A DNA stretch of 32,619 bases from Tissierellia bacterium (GTDB taxonomy: Bacteria; Bacillota; Clostridia; Tissierellales; Tissierellaceae): contig JAAYNS010000007.1 in assembly GCA_012520755.1 (NCBI GenBank), positions 1-32,619 on the forward strand, written 5' to 3'. A model generated the notes under the pieces. The model searched no databases, was not told the origin of the DNA, and worked only from the letters and a program-made list of their open reading frames with translations. This document shows positions 17,936 through 26,177 of the stretch, in pieces; positions within the stretch are counted from its first letter, which is position 1, and every line of letters begins with the position of its first letter. The position numbers were made by a program, and so were the translations under genes.

Positions 17936-19054
17936 TTATTTTTGATTTTTCGCCCCACTAATAGACTTTCTTCTGAATAAAAAAATCATACAAGTAATTA
18001 AGGGAATAATTATTATATAAATTACAAAAATGATTGCTAAATAGTTATTTAGGTCATTCCTAGTCCCAACAACTGGTCTCATCACTGTTATCCCAATTGA
18101 TACAATCCAAACAATAGTACTGACAATAAACAAGCATAGTTTATCATCTTCTCCTTTATTAAATATATCTCTGAGAATTTTCGTAGCTAAGTATAAAAGA
18201 ATATTTATTCTAAAAGTAATTGTTAATAACCACATCACAACAAAAACAGCTGCAATTCTTTCTACTATTCTTGCCAGATTTATTAATCTAACATATATTA
18301 GGAAAGGAAAAAGTGAATGTCTTGCATATTCTATTCCTAAAGCTCCTTGGGTTATAATTATAACAATGTTGAGTATTATCATATTAGTAATAAGACTACC
18401 AAAAAAAACCCTAGTCGAAATATTTTTATTTTTAAGTTCTGGCACCAACATTGCTATTATAATAATATCATTATACAAAGTGCTTAAGATTAATGCCCCT
18501 TTATTTATATCATTTATTGTACTATCTGAAAGTATAGGTAAGAACAATGAAAAGTCAACATTATTTATACCTAATACTATTAATACAAATAAAATAGAAT
18601 ATATAACTGGAATCAATAGATCCACTGATCTGAGAATAACTATTACACCTCTAGATGTCATGTAGATGCATACCATTAGCATAAGGGTTGTAATTAGATA
18701 ATTTGATGATTCTGGAAGAATAGAAGTGGTAACCAACTCAGTTTGTAAAATTATAGCATCAATTGTTAATATAATAAAATATATTAAGTAAAGAACACCC
18801 ATTAATCTACTTAAAGGTCTCCCATAAATACTTGTTACAAATCCTTTAACTGTGTCCTTATTAATTCTATTAGCTAAAAAAAGTATAGGCATAGATGATA
18901 TTGCAATATATAGGCATGCAACTATTACCATTACCCATTGGTCTTGATTATGTGGTGGTACATGCAATGCAAGAATACTAGATATTGAAAAAGAAAGCCT
19001 GGCAACTATCAGGAGTCCAAATAATTGTCTAGTTGGTATTTTTTCATTTTGCAT
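17936..19054 (-). CDS. Spore germination receptor subunit B (GerAB/ArcD/ProY family)
   Basis: About 10 TM transporter-like protein directly following gerAC and gerAA homologues; overlaps gerAC 3' end by 11 nt from the preferred ATG at 19054. Confidence 0.9.
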   Translation of the reverse strand: MQNEKIPTRQLFGLLIVARLSFSISSILALHVPPHNQDQWVMVIVACLYIAISSMPILFLANRINKDTVKGFVTSIYGRPLSRLMGVLYLIYFIILTIDAIILQTELVTTSILPESSNYLITTLMLMVCIYMTSRGVIVILRSVDLLIPVIYSILFVLIVLGINNVDFSLFLPILSDSTINDINKGALILSTLYNDIIIIAMLVPELKNKNISTRVFFGSLITNMIILNIVIIITQGALGIEYARHSLFPFLIYVRLINLARIVERIAAVFVVMWLLTITFRINILLYLATKILRDIFNKGEDDKLCLFIVSTIVWIVSIGITVMRPVVGTRNDLNNYLAIIFVIYIIIIPLITCMIFLFRRKSISGAKNQK

Positions 19055-20285
19055 TATTTTCACCTTTTTCAACATTTGTCGGCATATCTAATAAACCTGT
19101 TCTAACTATATATGTTTCAACATTTATATCATAACTAATTTCAGTGAATATACTCTCCCAGTCATTTGATATTTCTTTCCACTCTTTTGGATATTTACTA
19201 TGAAATAAAGTATCTATTCCAAAGGTATCAACTTTCAGGTCTTTTTGTGCTTTATCCATTGTTTTTCTAATTATATCTTTTATTCTATTGGAACAAGCTT
19301 CCTCAGTTGCCTTTAATACATTTAAATATCTCAAATCAAGTCCTTTTGAATCTTCTCCAATGACTCCTCTTAATTTAACATCAATAATCAAATTTGGCTT
19401 TCCATCTTTTATTTCTAAAGTATTTTTTGTTTTACTATCTTTAATTTCTAAGACTGTATATTTACCTTTTGTAGCTGCATATTTATTGTCATTATCTACA
19501 AGCTGGTCGGGTACTTCAAACTCAATAATACTATTCTTAATCTCATCAACTAAAAAATTAAAGCCTATCATTTCTTCACCCGAATAATATCCTATCAATG
19601 AATCTTTATAAAAGACAGCACCCCCTTCAACATCAAGGACATCTCTGTGATTTAACCCTTTAAGAGTGTCTTCTGGATTTATGATTCTTTTTTCTTTTAC
19701 TTGAACTACTCCTAAAACAGGTGTTTTTCTTTGATAAAAATACTTAATATATTCACTAATATTTAGGCTCCTTGTTTTTGATGTGTATTTGTGATTTCTT
19801 ATTAATTGTTCTAAGTACATACCAAATGTAGAACTTAAACCTTCATTAATACCCATAACCTCATAAGCTTTTGCATCCTTTGCGACTAACATAAAAGTAG
19901 ACTCTCTCGGTTCATTATCATATAAAAAAAAGTTTATATACTGTCCAATACCACGTTTGGCCAACTCTTCACCGAAAATTATAATTTCATTATGAGAATA
20001 CAATAATTTTCTATCAAAGGTTAAGGTAGCATTTCTAATTGCTTCAAATATTGTATCTCCCTCATGTTGGGTATATAAAGCAGAAGAACCTTTATCATTT
20101 TTTTGCCCAGAAGCATCAGTAGGAACTATAACTTCATTTGTAAGCAATACTTTTTCACCCACGAGGTCTATACCTGTGACAGTAACAATAGCTAATTGAC
20201 TTATTTCTATATAGCCCACACATGAAGCCAATATAATAGAAGATATTAATATTATTAATAAGTAAACTCCTTTTTTTCCTAACAT
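19044..20285 (-). CDS. Spore germination receptor subunit C lipoprotein (Ger(x)C family)
   Basis: Lipobox (SSIILASCVGYIEI), ELAIVTVTGIDL-type N-terminus, SHNEIIIFGEELAKRGIGQYINFFLYDNEPRESTFMLVAK motif. Confidence 0.94.
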   Translation of the reverse strand: MLGKKGVYLLIILISSIILASCVGYIEISQLAIVTVTGIDLVGEKVLLTNEVIVPTDASGQKNDKGSSALYTQHEGDTIFEAIRNATLTFDRKLLYSHNEIIIFGEELAKRGIGQYINFFLYDNEPRESTFMLVAKDAKAYEVMGINEGLSSTFGMYLEQLIRNHKYTSKTRSLNISEYIKYFYQRKTPVLGVVQVKEKRIINPEDTLKGLNHRDVLDVEGGAVFYKDSLIGYYSGEEMIGFNFLVDEIKNSIIEFEVPDQLVDNDNKYAATKGKYTVLEIKDSKTKNTLEIKDGKPNLIIDVKLRGVIGEDSKGLDLRYLNVLKATEEACSNRIKDIIRKTMDKAQKDLKVDTFGIDTLFHSKYPKEWKEISNDWESIFTEISYDINVETYIVRTGLLDMPTNVEKGENNAK

Positions 20286-20289
20286 TTTA

Positions 20290-21714
20290 TTAATTCCTTT
20301 TTCTTGAATTTGGCTCTGAAATATACTTAGGTCTGTGATTCATTTTCTTTATTGTTTCTCTCCTTAAAAAGTCCTGCATTGCTTCTTTATCATAAGGTGC
20401 TATTGGAAATAAGTATGGAACACCAAAAGATTTTATACTAAGCAAATGAAATGCACTTATTGCAAAACCTGCAAATATGCCAAACAAGCCAAATAAACCA
20501 CCCAGTATAATAAATAGTATCCTATATATTACTATTATTTCCCTAAAATGTGGTATGACAAATTCTGCAATACCCGCTGCAGATACTATAATTACCATAA
20601 CCGCACTTACTAAACCTGCTTCAACAGCTGCCTGACCTATTACTAATCCACCAATAAGGGTTACAGTCTGACCTACATTTTTAGGCATTCTTAATCCTGC
20701 TTCTTTTATTATTTCATAAAACAATATCATAATTAACGCTTCTAAAAGGCTTGGAAATGGTACATCTTCCCTTTGGCCAGCTAAAGTAATTAACAATTGT
20801 GTAGGAACCATCTCATGATGAAAATTAGCTATAGCAATATAACTGCCAACTAGAAGAATACTTATAAAAAATGACAAATATCTAATAACTCTAAGAAAAG
20901 ACGAATACTTAGGTTTTGAGTAGTAATCTTCTGGATCCATTAAGTCTTCAATAAAAATTTTAGGCACGGTTGCCACGCTAGGTGAACCGTCACAGATAAT
21001 ACCTATTCTTCCTTCTAAGATTTTACCAGCTAACACATCTGGTTTTTCTGTATGATAAACCGTCCGAACTAAGCTGCTCGGTGAATCATCTATATATTCC
21101 TCTATATAACTAGTATCTAAAACTGCATCTGTTTTTATCTTACTCAATCTTGCTTTTAATTCTTCGAGTATTTCTTTGTTTACGATTCCTTTTATATATA
21201 CAATGCATACTTGAGTATTTGTCATTTCTCCTAATGTAAATTGTTCAAAGATTAGATTATGATTCCTAATTTTTCGTCTAATAAGTGACTTGTTTACATA
21301 TATATCCTCTACAAATGATTCTTTTGGCCCTCTAATAACTTGCTCTACAGTCGATTCTGCAACAGATCTTTTATCATATCTACACATATTCATGGCATAG
21401 GCTGTGTCTATACCGTCAATATAAACTACAACACTTCCATCTACTATTTCTTTAATTGATTCATTTATACTAAATATCTCTTGAATTTCTGACACATAAA
21501 TTGATGATTCTATATCATACGCTGATACTAAATTATTTTTCATAGGTTTTATTACAAATTCATTTAAAGCCTTTTTATCTATTAAAGCATTAATATACAC
21601 TAATAATACTTCTGTATCTCCCAATGTATCAAATTGATATAATATTAAATCATCCGAATTATTAAATTTTTCTTTGATGATAGCTTTGTTTTCCATTATA
21701 TTTTTTGAAATCAT
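20290..21714 (-). CDS. Spore germination receptor subunit A (GerA family)
   Basis: VIRGPKESFVEDIYVNKSLIRRKIRN, GRIGIICDGSPSVATVPKIFIEDLMDPEDYYSKP, LRMPKNVGQTVTLIGGLVIGQAAVEAGLVS motifs. ATG 21714 after gggga preferred to the 21759 track start. Confidence 0.95.
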   Translation of the reverse strand: MISKNIMENKAIIKEKFNNSDDLILYQFDTLGDTEVLLVYINALIDKKALNEFVIKPMKNNLVSAYDIESSIYVSEIQEIFSINESIKEIVDGSVVVYIDGIDTAYAMNMCRYDKRSVAESTVEQVIRGPKESFVEDIYVNKSLIRRKIRNHNLIFEQFTLGEMTNTQVCIVYIKGIVNKEILEELKARLSKIKTDAVLDTSYIEEYIDDSPSSLVRTVYHTEKPDVLAGKILEGRIGIICDGSPSVATVPKIFIEDLMDPEDYYSKPKYSSFLRVIRYLSFFISILLVGSYIAIANFHHEMVPTQLLITLAGQREDVPFPSLLEALIMILFYEIIKEAGLRMPKNVGQTVTLIGGLVIGQAAVEAGLVSAVMVIIVSAAGIAEFVIPHFREIIVIYRILFIILGGLFGLFGIFAGFAISAFHLLSIKSFGVPYLFPIAPYDKEAMQDFLRRETIKKMNHRPKYISEPNSRKRN

Positions 21715-21840
21715 ACTATCTCCCCTATATAGGTTACTAATACATATTAGCATTACCAATTATTTTATTTTATATTACAAACTGTTATACCTATTCTTTC
21801 TTGGATATAATTAATATAAGAACATATAAGGGTGAGTAAA

Positions 21841-22533
21841 ATGAATTATAATATTTTGGTTGTAGAAGATGAAAAAAACATTCTTGATATAATTAGTCTG
21901 TATTTAGAAAAAGAAAATTATAATGTTTATAAGGCTATGGATGGAGAAGAAGCTTTAGCTATTTATAGAAATAAGGAAATCCATCTTATTATATTGGACT
22001 TGATGATACCTAAGATTTCAGGAGAAAAAGTATGTAAAACAATACGTAAAAAGTCTAATGTTCCTATAATAATCCTTACTGCAAAAGATGATGAGGATAG
22101 TAAAATAGATGGCCTAGATTCTGGTGCAGATGATTATGTAACAAAACCGTTTAGTAATAGGGAGCTTATGAGTAGAGTAAATGCTTTATTGAGAAGGAGC
22201 TACAAGAATAATTACAAATCATCGAATTCTGACCTTAGTTTTGATAATGGTAGATTAAAAATCAATTTAGAGAAAATGATTGTAAAAAAGGATGATGGAA
22301 TTATTGATTTGACGGCAAATGAATTTAAGATACTTTCTGTTTTTATAAATAATCCGGGAAATATTCTTTCAAGAGAGCAACTGATAGAATCAGCTTTTGG
22401 TTATGAATATGAAGCATATGATAGGACTATAGATTCACATATTAAAAATATAAGACAGAAGCTTGAGGATAATCCTAAAACTCCTGTCTATATTGTGACC
22501 GTTTATGGTATTGGATACAAATTCAATAATTAG
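21841..22533 (+). CDS. OmpR/PhoB-family response regulator
   Basis: Receiver (ILVVEDEKNILDIISLYLEKE...LDLMIPKISG...ILTAKDDEDSKIDGLDSGADDYVTKPF) and Trans_reg_C wHTH. Confidence 0.96.
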   Translation: MNYNILVVEDEKNILDIISLYLEKENYNVYKAMDGEEALAIYRNKEIHLIILDLMIPKISGEKVCKTIRKKSNVPIIILTAKDDEDSKIDGLDSGADDYVTKPFSNRELMSRVNALLRRSYKNNYKSSNSDLSFDNGRLKINLEKMIVKKDDGIIDLTANEFKILSVFINNPGNILSREQLIESAFGYEYEAYDRTIDSHIKNIRQKLEDNPKTPVYIVTVYGIGYKFNN

Positions 22534-22835
22534 GGTCTTCTACCATGACACCTACCATAACCATAACCCATACCACGGCCATATCTGTTAAATCTTTGGA
22601 AATCATTTTTTTCATGGAATTCTTCCATATAATCAAAGTGTTCTGACCAACTATTGTATTCATCTTGACTAATGTCTCCATTATCAAGAGCATCTTCAAG
22701 GCCTTCTCTTCTATAATCCATTCTCTCTTTATGCCAATCAAATAATCTACTGTCTTCTGTACTCTCAGCTAATACGAATATTGATCCAGCTCCTAAGGTC
22801 AATACTAATGCTAATATAAAAACTATTTTTTTCAT
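22530..22835 (-). CDS. Small secreted protein, DUF2680-like, Gly/Tyr/Arg/His-rich C-terminus
   Basis: 101 aa with signal peptide MKKIVFILALVLTLGAGSIFVLAE, helical acidic core, tail NRYGRGMGYGYGRCHGRRP; RBS aaaggag; located between RR and HK on the opposite strand. Confidence 0.82.
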   Translation of the reverse strand: MKKIVFILALVLTLGAGSIFVLAESTEDSRLFDWHKERMDYRREGLEDALDNGDISQDEYNSWSEHFDYMEEFHEKNDFQRFNRYGRGMGYGYGRCHGRRP

Positions 22836-22943
22836 TGTTTTACTCCTTTCATCTTTTCATATTATTTATTAATTATATAATAATAATGAATTATGGAGGA
22901 ATTATGGAGAACTTATATCAAATAAATACACTTGAGGTGAATT

Positions 22944-24332
22944 ATGAATTTATTCAGAAAAATAATTTTAAGTTTTATTTTGACCATCCTTGTATCTATA
23001 ACAATTATTTCTATTACATCCAATATTATGATAAATAATAGATTTAAAAATTATCTTGAAGAAGAACAACAGATTAAGTTTGATAAGATTTATGAAGAAA
23101 TTAACAACTATTATATAGACGAAAATCTCAGTTTAAATCAAATGAATTTAATGCACTATTCAATGGCAGAAGATATAGATCTAACCATAAAAGATACTGA
23201 AGAAAACATTATCTACACTACTAAAAATAGTCCTAAGAATGGTATGGGCCGTATGCACATGGGCAGAAATAGTATGCATGCTAATAAATATGGACTGGGA
23301 AACTATGTAGAAAAACTATATCCTTTAGTCTATGATAGCAATGCTGTCGGCAGCCTTACTATTGGTTATATAGATAATTCTTATATTACCGATGGTGCTG
23401 TGATATTTCTAGATACTATGACCCAATCATTATCAATTTCTGGATTGTTTGCAATAGCTATAGGTATAATAATCAGTCTAGTACTATCAAACAGCTTAAC
23501 TAAACCCCTAATGGTCATTACCGAAACAGCTAATAAAATACGCCATGGCGATTTAAAGGCTAAATCTAATGTCTGCACAAATACAAAAGAAATAATTGAA
23601 TTATCAAACACAATTAATTATTTGAGTAATACTCTTTCTGACCAAGATAAAATTAGAAAACAGTATGCTTCTGATATTTCACATGAACTTCGAACTCCAT
23701 TAACTACATTAAAATCTCATTTAGAAGCTATGTTAGACAAGGTATTGGAACCAAGTGATGAACATTTAGAGATATTGATGACTGAAATAAATAGGCTATC
23801 AAAACTAATAGATGACTTAAAAGATTCCTTTGTGAAGGAAGAGTACTCAATGGATTTGAATTTGATAGAAGTTGATATTACAGAAGAATTAATGTCAATT
23901 ATTAAAACTTATGAACCACTTTATGAAGAAAAAGGCTTTTCCATAGAATTTAATTTTAAAGAAGATATTTTAATTCTAATTGATATTGATAGATTTAAAC
24001 AAATTATGAACAATTTATTATCAAATTCCTTAAGGTATTTAAACAAAGACGGAAAAGTAATTGTTGACCTATTGAGAAATGATGATAGTATACTTTTAAG
24101 TGTATCAGATAATGGTATTGGGATAAAAGCTAATGATTTACCTTATGTATTTAATAGGTTTTTTAGAGTTGATACATCTAGAAATAAGTCTACAGGCGGA
24201 ACTGGATTAGGCTTACCAATAGTCAAATCAATTGTAGAAGCCCATAATGGTAGTATCACAATTAATAGTGAATATGGGAAAGGTACTAATATTACTATTA
24301 AACTACCTATCACAAAAAAGAATCATCTGTAA
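22944..24332 (+). CDS. Sensor histidine kinase (HAMP, HisKA, HATPase_c)
   Basis: Two TM segments flanking an extracytoplasmic region with MGRMHMGRNSMH; H-box SDISHELRTPLTTLKSHLEAM, N/G boxes (NNLLSNSLRYL, VSDNGIGI, STGGTGLGLPIVKSI). RBS gaggtga. Confidence 0.96.
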   Translation: MNLFRKIILSFILTILVSITIISITSNIMINNRFKNYLEEEQQIKFDKIYEEINNYYIDENLSLNQMNLMHYSMAEDIDLTIKDTEENIIYTTKNSPKNGMGRMHMGRNSMHANKYGLGNYVEKLYPLVYDSNAVGSLTIGYIDNSYITDGAVIFLDTMTQSLSISGLFAIAIGIIISLVLSNSLTKPLMVITETANKIRHGDLKAKSNVCTNTKEIIELSNTINYLSNTLSDQDKIRKQYASDISHELRTPLTTLKSHLEAMLDKVLEPSDEHLEILMTEINRLSKLIDDLKDSFVKEEYSMDLNLIEVDITEELMSIIKTYEPLYEEKGFSIEFNFKEDILILIDIDRFKQIMNNLLSNSLRYLNKDGKVIVDLLRNDDSILLSVSDNGIGIKANDLPYVFNRFFRVDTSRNKSTGGTGLGLPIVKSIVEAHNGSITINSEYGKGTNITIKLPITKKNHL

Positions 24333-24356: not shown

Positions 24357-24899
24357 CTATATTGCATAAATATATGCTATTGCTTTCTTATATATTATTC
24401 TAGCTGGTGCACCTACTGCTGTTGTTCCAGCTGGCACATCATCCAAGACTACAGAGTTTGCACCAACTTTGGCACCTTCTCCTATAGTAATAGGACCTAG
24501 GATTTTCGCTCCAGCACCAATAATTACATTATCTTCAATTGTTGGATGCCTCTTTTCCCCTTTGTCTCCACCTATTCCACCTAGGGTTACTCCATGAAAT
24601 AATGTTACATCATCTCCAATTTCAGCAGTTTCACCTATAACGATACCCATACCATGATCTATAAATAGGTTTTTGCCTATTTTGGCTCCAGGATGGATTT
24701 CTATTCCTGTAACTTTTCTTGCATGTTGAGAAATCATTCTAGCACGAAATAGCTTGCCTTTCAAATATAATTTGTGAGATATTCTATGGTAGACTATTGC
24801 TTTTAAACCTGGTGAAGAAAAAATCGCCTCCACTAAATTCTTTGCAGCTGGATCTTTTTCCAAAATAACTTTACCTTGTTCTATAATAAATTTTAACAC
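24357..24899 (-). CDS. cysE: Serine O-acetyltransferase
   Basis: [41 protein letters not shown] hexapeptide-repeat signature; next to cysK; GTG start. Confidence 0.95.
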
Positions 24900-24911
24900 A
24901 CTACCACACTC

Positions 24912-25826
24912 CTACTCCTGAGCAAATAATACTGTTGATAAATATCTCTCTCCTGTATCTGGTAATATTGCTACTACTGTTTTTCCCTTACCTAGTCTTT
25001 TAGCAATTTGAACTGCTGCTGCATAATTTGCTCCTGATGACATACCGGATAATATTCCTTCATCTTTGCCTAATTTTCTAGCATATTCATATGCTGTCTC
25101 ATCGTCCATATCAATAATTTCATCTACTACATCAGACTTATATATATCTGGAATAAAGTTTGCACCTAGACCTTGAATTCCATGTCCAGATGGTGCTCCA
25201 CCACTAAGAACTGGTGATTTAGATGGTTGTACTGCTACAGTTAAAATATCTTTGTTATGTTCTTTTAATATTTTACCCACTCCACTTATAGTACCACCTG
25301 TACCTACCCCAGCTACAAATGCGTCAATTTTTCCCTCTGTATCATCTAATATTTCTATTGCTGTTGTTTCTAAATGTGATAAAACATTTGCTTCATTAGA
25401 AAATTGACCAGTCATGAAATATTTATTTTCCTTTGCAAGTTCCTTTGCTTTATCAACAGAACCTTGCATTCCAGCCTTTCCTTCAGTCAAAACTAGTTCT
25501 GCACCATACGCTGTCATGATTCTTCTTCTTTCAACACTCATCGTATCTGGCATTACGATTATTACTCTATAACCTCTCGCTGCACCTATCATTGATAAAG
25601 CTATACCCATATTTCCACTTGTTGCTTCAATAATTGTGTCCCCTTCTTTTAAAATACCCTTCTTTTCAGCATCTAAAATCATGTAGTATGCTGGCCTATC
25701 TTTAACACTACCACCAGGATTAAAACTCTCTAATTTAACTAAAATTTCTGCCATGTTTTCATCTGTATGATTAATCCTCACCAATGGTGTACGTCCAATT
25801 GTATCTGTTATATTTTTATATATCAT
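24912..25826 (-). CDS. cysK: Cysteine synthase A
   Basis: ITDTIGRTPLVRIN, ESFNPGGSVKDRPA (PLP lysine), EATSGNMGIALSM, GVGTGGTISGVGKIL, GILSGMSSGANY. ATG 25826 after aggaggat; track start 25886 lies inside the T-box terminator. Confidence 0.96.
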   Translation of the reverse strand: MIYKNITDTIGRTPLVRINHTDENMAEILVKLESFNPGGSVKDRPAYYMILDAEKKGILKEGDTIIEATSGNMGIALSMIGAARGYRVIIVMPDTMSVERRRIMTAYGAELVLTEGKAGMQGSVDKAKELAKENKYFMTGQFSNEANVLSHLETTAIEILDDTEGKIDAFVAGVGTGGTISGVGKILKEHNKDILTVAVQPSKSPVLSGGAPSGHGIQGLGANFIPDIYKSDVVDEIIDMDDETAYEYARKLGKDEGILSGMSSGANYAAAVQIAKRLGKGKTVVAILPDTGERYLSTVLFAQE

Positions 25827-25839
25827 AAAAATCCTCCTT

Positions 25840-26075
25840 AAAATAAAATTACCTCTTGCCAATGTATATATCATATACAGAGGCAAAAGGTTATATTCGC
25901 GGTTCCACTCTGTTTAGGACAAATGTCCCAACTCAATTCAAGTACTACATACTCTAGTTCTATAACGGGAACTACCGTGTAAATCTACTAAAATTTCGAT
26001 TTAAAGCTCATTGATGCACTTCTATTATTTCCATATAGATTCCTTCCACCAATGGAATCCTCTCTTTAATATTTC
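25840..26075 (-). promoter_or_regulatory. T-box riboswitch, tRNA-Cys specific, controlling cysK-cysE
   Basis: Minus strand: stem I TTAAAG (26069-26064) / CTTTAA (26006-26001) with AGAGAGGA; specifier TGC at 26018-26016 (GAAG-TGC-ATCAATGAGC); T-box AGAGTGGAACCGCG at 25911-25898; terminator hairpin CCTTTTGCCTCTGTATAT/ATATACATTGGCAAGAGG at 25890-25852 followed by TAATTTTATTTT. Confidence 0.95.
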
Positions 26076-26177
26076 TATAATATACTTTATCAATTCATAG
26101 CTATTTACTATAGATTAACTAATACATAGTATTATACTAGGAATTATTAAATAAATCAATACCCTTTTATAAATATT

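Follow-up and report, generated by a model that had tools for sequence, protein, structure and literature searches.

The locus analysed here probably encodes an extracytoplasmic two-component system of the Cu(I)/Ag(I) type, the main output of which, in this genome, would be a secreted metal-binding protein with a helical-hairpin fold. The signal is most likely Cu(I), or Ag(I), and we infer this identity, for the signal and for the ligand of the secreted protein alike, from gene neighbours in relatives and from the residues of the proteins. The parts are of known kinds; what is new is a dedicated secreted DUF2680 partner, a matching sensor loop and a regulon of one gene. Together with a precise predicted binding site and a testable ligand, this provides an evidence-based role for the DUF2680/YckD group, and it suggests that anaerobic Gram-positive bacteria, in addition to the cytoplasmic CsoR system, have a means of sensing copper outside the membrane. 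Extracytoplasmic copper sensing is a layer usually described for Gram-negative bacteria.

Organization and conservation of the cassette

The cassette is located in a stretch of 32,619 nucleotides (the whole of the DNA analysed, here called the window) from a draft genome (1.92 Mb, 209 contigs) of a spore-former related to Tissierella. It comprises a response regulator gene on the forward strand (RR, 21832..22533), a gene for a secreted protein of 101 aa on the reverse strand (SP, 22530..22835) and a membrane histidine kinase gene on the forward strand (HK, 22944..24332). All frames are open in an ORF check of the window, and open frames and domain matches together confirm this gene order as read in the first-pass annotation. 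RR contains Response_reg (2.7e-31) and Trans_reg_C (1.1e-26) domains, and the combination of a receiver, a winged-helix Trans_reg_C domain and a predicted direct-repeat site at the -35 position places it in the OmpR/PhoB family; its orthologues in SP-carrying relatives share 57-75% identity, and the ATG at 21841, behind AAGGGTGAG, is a likelier start than 21832. HK is predicted to have two transmembrane helices around a PAS-like sensor, along with HAMP, HisKA (3e-13) and HATPase_c (1.2e-29) domains. RR and SP converge on overlapping stop codons. HK and SP point away from each other, and the gap of 108 bp between their starts (22836..22943) thus holds divergent promoters.

Synteny of the three genes, proposed earlier as a check, holds in relatives: the order with SP on the opposite strand between RR and HK is kept in G002, a genome of the same genus, and across many Tissierellaceae. 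Elsewhere SP is divergent, upstream of an intact RR-HK or HK-RR pair, or an orphan. SP, HK and RR are all absent together from two further genomes of the same genus (G001 and G003) at the thresholds used, with a weak DUF2680-like match only in G003. All but one of the 37 genomes that have a strong SP encode a kinase of the same sensor type. Two genomes, G010 and G023, have the orthologous RR (65-66% identity) on another contig and an unrelated regulator beside SP-HK; SP-HK and the repeat site described below stayed together.

The secreted protein as a diverged DUF2680 relative

The small gene is borne out as real by open frames, conserved motifs and homologues in 21 of 60 relatives. Across the order, homologues were found in 79 of 249 genomes at a loose threshold, approximately 37 of them strong. 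An alignment-based scan of genome contigs with SP recovered, among named species, Tissierella praeacuta, T. simiarum, T. pigra and T. creatinophila. An AlphaFold2 model of SP predicts a signal peptide (approximately residues 1-23), a confident helical hairpin (28-51/57-76) and a disordered tail rich in Arg, Gly and Tyr that includes Cys and His. Three residues are invariant (M70, H74 and N77, the first two forming a Met-x3-His motif), and a Cys in the tail is present in nearly all members. The C-terminal tail NRYGRGMGYGYGRCHGRRP and the Met/His-rich kinase stretch MGRMHMGRNSMH singled out in the first-pass annotation are both present. SP had also been described as rich in His, Met and Tyr, of which only the Tyr part stands: the 78 residues of the mature protein include 6 Y but only 3 M and 4 H, and are richer in Arg (10 R) and Gly (8 G).

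The window SP itself matched no Pfam family, DUF2680 included. In contrast, 14 of 20 SP relatives match DUF2680 (PF10925, represented by YckD of Bacillus subtilis), several above 25 bits and the best at 7.2e-7, and more distant homologues beside a kinase of the same type or a Cu-type ATPase do so at 9.7e-9 and 6.8e-11. Since both groups match PF10925, SP is best described, from sequence, as a diverged relative of DUF2680/YckD, an uncharacterised group. A PDB sequence search with the SP profile gave chance matches only, and the fold comparison with the PDB gave generic helix hairpins, nothing being found at E <= 0.001. In the literature searched, which left most subscription journals outside, neither a function for DUF2680 nor a description of an RR-HK pair with a secreted DUF2680 protein was found.

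As a small exported helical protein under a two-component system, judged in silico by its signal peptide, hairpin and RR-type site, SP may work like CpxP, Spy and ZraP. Unlike these, it is a single hairpin of 101 aa, and neither LTXXQ nor Metal_resist was among the matches listed for 20 SP members (best 25 of 37 families); the analogy drawn earlier, the core of which would be physical feedback of SP on the kinase, is thus not one of family membership by sequence.

Variants of the protein were seen in relatives. One SP has a duplicated hairpin and the same repeat upstream (L242:1450-1956). Met-rich secreted proteins not recognised as DUF2680 lie beside loop-bearing kinases at L146:4698-5015 and L148:3964-4395, with repeats scoring 23.6 and 20.4, and could possibly substitute for SP.

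The kinase sensor and its Met/His-rich loop

In the AlphaFold2 model, the PAS-like sensor domain of HK sits between the two membrane helices and carries a Met/His-rich loop, KNSPKNGMGRMHMGRNSMHANKYGLG (residues 94-119; 23223..23300, forward strand), which is placed between the second and third strands and predicted to be disordered at residues 96-118. A fold search with the sensor placed WalK at the top and also returned other PAS-like sensors, among them CusS with silver (5ku5; E 0.016, probability 1.00, TM 0.30), a weak, lower-ranked match between folds that is suggestive but not specific.

The loop was expected from the first-pass annotation to co-vary with SP, and it does: a loop with at least five Met+His was found in 30/30 SP-linked kinases vs 11/27 other kinases of the same type (Fisher p 2e-7), the remaining 16 of which fall below five. 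The direct repeat was likewise found within 5 kb of 36/41 loop-bearing kinases vs 4/16 loop-less ones, and many SP-less kinases of the same type are without both loop and repeat. The labels for loop, SP and repeat are clustered on the kinase tree (at least 8 changes needed), so the kinases cannot be counted as independent cases and the p values make the association look stronger than it is. The sequence of the loop is highly variable among kinases.

A direct repeat upstream of the secreted protein gene

Upstream of the SP genes, a tandem direct repeat with a period of 11 bp (consensus TCTTCATAWTTCCTTCAYAWTT) ends 6-7 bp before TATAAT. In the window, this predicted RR-binding site (TCTCCATAATT-CCTCCATAATT, 22889..22910, reverse strand) lies over the SP -35 position, 6 bp upstream of a -10-like TATTAT (22877-22882, reverse strand). 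A position over -35 is the classical one for activator sites of the OmpR/PhoB type. A candidate HK promoter, TTTTCA-N16-TATAAT (22854-22881, forward strand), was also seen, its score alone not being above chance.

The repeat precedes 38 of the 40 SP genes used for motif building, orphans included. It was also found at a minimum of 9 among 15 SP loci from other families that had been kept out of the matrix. The window site scores 31.2 (30.7 in leave-one-out), whereas 8,000 shuffles of upstream regions reach 19.8 at most, and it is the sole site with 0-1 mismatches in the 1.92-Mb host genome. With one mismatch allowed, the pattern occurs 78 times in the 37 SP genomes vs 17 times in the control, and the strict 22-mer gave seven matches in 249 genomes, all at SP/RR loci, vs none in the control. 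In four genomes with an orphan SP (G035, G197, G034 and G050), both SP and the distant two-component operon carry the repeat. The earlier claim that SP is a target of RR is therefore strongly supported as a prediction, by a putative site that lies over -35, is unique in the genome and is common to orphan SP genes and distant kinase operons. As the sole strong site in the host genome is that of SP, SP would be the main output of the system. In many relatives a copy of the repeat faces RR or its operon, which would amount to autoregulation, and in L024 a second copy with a TATAAT faces HK. A larger regulon in the host genome was considered and rejected, as the seven two-mismatch sites found besides the SP site equal the seven of a reversed-pattern control.

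Other small genes were seen with the same repeat. Three loci encode a membrane peptide of 50-59 aa (MCHGFGFYNYPG...) between SP and RR with the repeat upstream (L133:3986-4165, L135:3999-4151 and L142:3801-3953); the two tested had no Pfam match. Small Met/Gly-rich membrane proteins of the SHOCT type recur as repeat-controlled genes (L065, L146, L168, L169, L226 and L227).

Copper-related neighbours and known systems

Copper genes adjoin the system in several relatives; none adjoins it within the window and none is in the predicted regulon of the host genome. CopA-CopZ-CsoR adjoins SP in L238, and L241 has the run Cu-type ATPase-DUF2680-SHOCT-RR-HK. A motif-driven SHOCT gene lies beside a copper-translocating ATPase in L226 (626 bits), a motif-driven secreted protein is found near a Csp-like DUF326 protein in L215, and proteins of this DUF326/Csp-like kind adjoin the repeat, SP or a sister kinase in both L215 and L165. 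HMA-DsbD fusion proteins are encoded beside sister kinases in L146, L157 and L237; loop-less related kinases also lie beside HMA-DsbD or CcdA genes (L147, L149 and L157), so the agreement between such neighbours and the loop is imperfect. General clustering of detoxification genes can also bring copper and SP genes together. Taken together, the neighbours in relatives suggest copper as the signal. The first-pass annotation had left the choice between metal (Cu, Zn or Ag) and envelope stress; neighbourhoods and the regulon in relatives favour Cu/Ag, and zinc or generic envelope stress less so. The host genome has a CsoR-CopA-CopZ locus on another contig, and the absence of the repeat there suggests a division of labour, with cytoplasmic copper handled by CsoR-CopA-CopZ and copper outside by RR, HK and SP.

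As in CusRS of Escherichia coli and the CopS/CopR families TIGR01386/TIGR01387, a membrane kinase with a modelled PAS-like extracytoplasmic sensor is paired with an OmpR-type regulator. Both proteins score below the family cut-offs (HK 193.4 < 292.55 bits for TIGR01386; RR 149.8 < 279.2 bits for TIGR01387). The output of Gram-negative CusRS is RND efflux, which, unlike in E. coli, is not seen here. In Corynebacterium glutamicum, CopRS is a Gram-positive two-component system for extracellular copper with a single genomic CopR site, a direct repeat of period 11 (TGAAGATTTnnTGAAGATTT) located 266-285 bp upstream of the cg3286 start site; CopR, a tested copper regulator, acts on a divergently encoded secreted protein of unknown function, and its output includes a multicopper oxidase, a CopB ATPase and TlpA (PMC3140484). 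The system described here shares with CopRS the single genomic site, the 11-bp period and a TGAAG core (other-strand family consensus TGAAGGAATTATGAAGA; window TGGAGGAATTATGGAGA), but differs in that the predicted output is SP alone and that the site lies over -35. As PhoB-type sites resemble one another, the likeness of the two could have arisen by convergence.

Proposed mechanism and alternative explanations

In the mechanism that we propose, metal would be bound outside the membrane by the Met/His-rich loop of the PAS-like sensor, and HK would, as is standard for the family, phosphorylate the OmpR-type RR. The phosphorylated RR would then bind the 11-bp-period repeat found over the SP -35 position and activate SP. 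The product, which is predicted to be exported and to form a helical hairpin, has the invariant Met-x3-His and a tail of Cys, His, Met, Arg and Gly; it may bind or buffer metal outside the membrane and/or protect envelope proteins. In the weakest step, it might close a negative feedback loop, either because less free metal is left or because it contacts the sensor; copper in the cytoplasm would be handled separately by the CsoR-CopA-CopZ locus. Direct inhibition of HK by SP is speculative. The SP tail and the HK loop are alike in composition, both being rich in Met, His, Arg and Gly, and this would suit shared metal ligands or direct contact alike. SP is perhaps a metal sink or envelope protector only, with no effect on HK beyond lowering metal; this is a sub-case of the proposed mechanism rather than an exclusive alternative, and it fits the persistence of SP as an orphan far from the kinase. 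A wider generalisation can be put forward only tentatively: DUF2680 would be the Gram-positive counterpart of CpxP/ZraP, a widespread secreted family of single-hairpin Cu(I)-binding proteins that are controlled by a dedicated class of two-component systems with a Met/His loop and that switch HK off by docking on its matching loop.

The same parts could be read as a Gram-positive Cpx-type system, in which HK responds to misfolded or damaged material in the envelope, SP inhibits HK in the manner of a chaperone and the loop serves to dock SP instead of binding metal. A small exported hairpin with its own dedicated two-component system would suit such a role, as would the co-occurrence of loop and SP in all linked cases, their similar composition and the lack of a metal transporter adjoining the locus in the window. 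We nonetheless regard envelope stress as an unlikely signal: copper genes are recurrent neighbours of SP, of the repeat and of sister kinases; among the repeat sites examined, none is notable for a protease, chaperone or cell-wall gene; and several loop-bearing kinases have no adjacent SP (L166 and L170). A metal signal other than copper or silver, such as zinc, nickel or a further soft metal, is less probable still, even though the histidines of the loop and SP suit zinc and one motif locus (L210) is near arsenic-type genes. Loops rich in Met typically bind Cu(I)/Ag(I), and the neighbours are a Cu-type ATPase, CopZ, a CsoR-type regulator and Csp-like proteins; the site also weakly resembles the C. 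glutamicum CopR site (PMC3140484) in period and in the TGAAG half-site core. Finally, the split layout could itself be the device, with RR and HK forming a noncontiguous operon antisense to SP, transcription of which would shut off RR/HK expression. In the window, where the two stop codons overlap, a search of the RR-SP junction gave no terminator, so that read-through from RR to HK antisense to SP is possible. However, most relatives with the same layout, Tissierella included, have a strong hairpin usable on both strands between RR and SP, HK has its own repeat and TATAAT in L024, and SP lies outside the RR-HK pair in many relatives, so the layout is not essential. Given the hairpins and the movable position of SP, such an operon was rejected as the main explanation, and we consider it improbable that it operates at all; the hairpins and the HK-facing repeat indicate that the split layout is probably a tolerated arrangement and not the mechanism.

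Flanking genes

Ger spore-germination genes (17936-21759) and cysE-cysK (24357-25886) flank the cassette. In Tissierella these blocks trade sides around it, strands unchanged, and several SP loci are without them, and a functional tie between the cassette and the ger and cys genes was therefore rejected. A PADLOC scan gave no match. A T-box leader (25876-26107, reverse strand; RF00230, 129 bits) is located upstream of the cysK-cysE pair.
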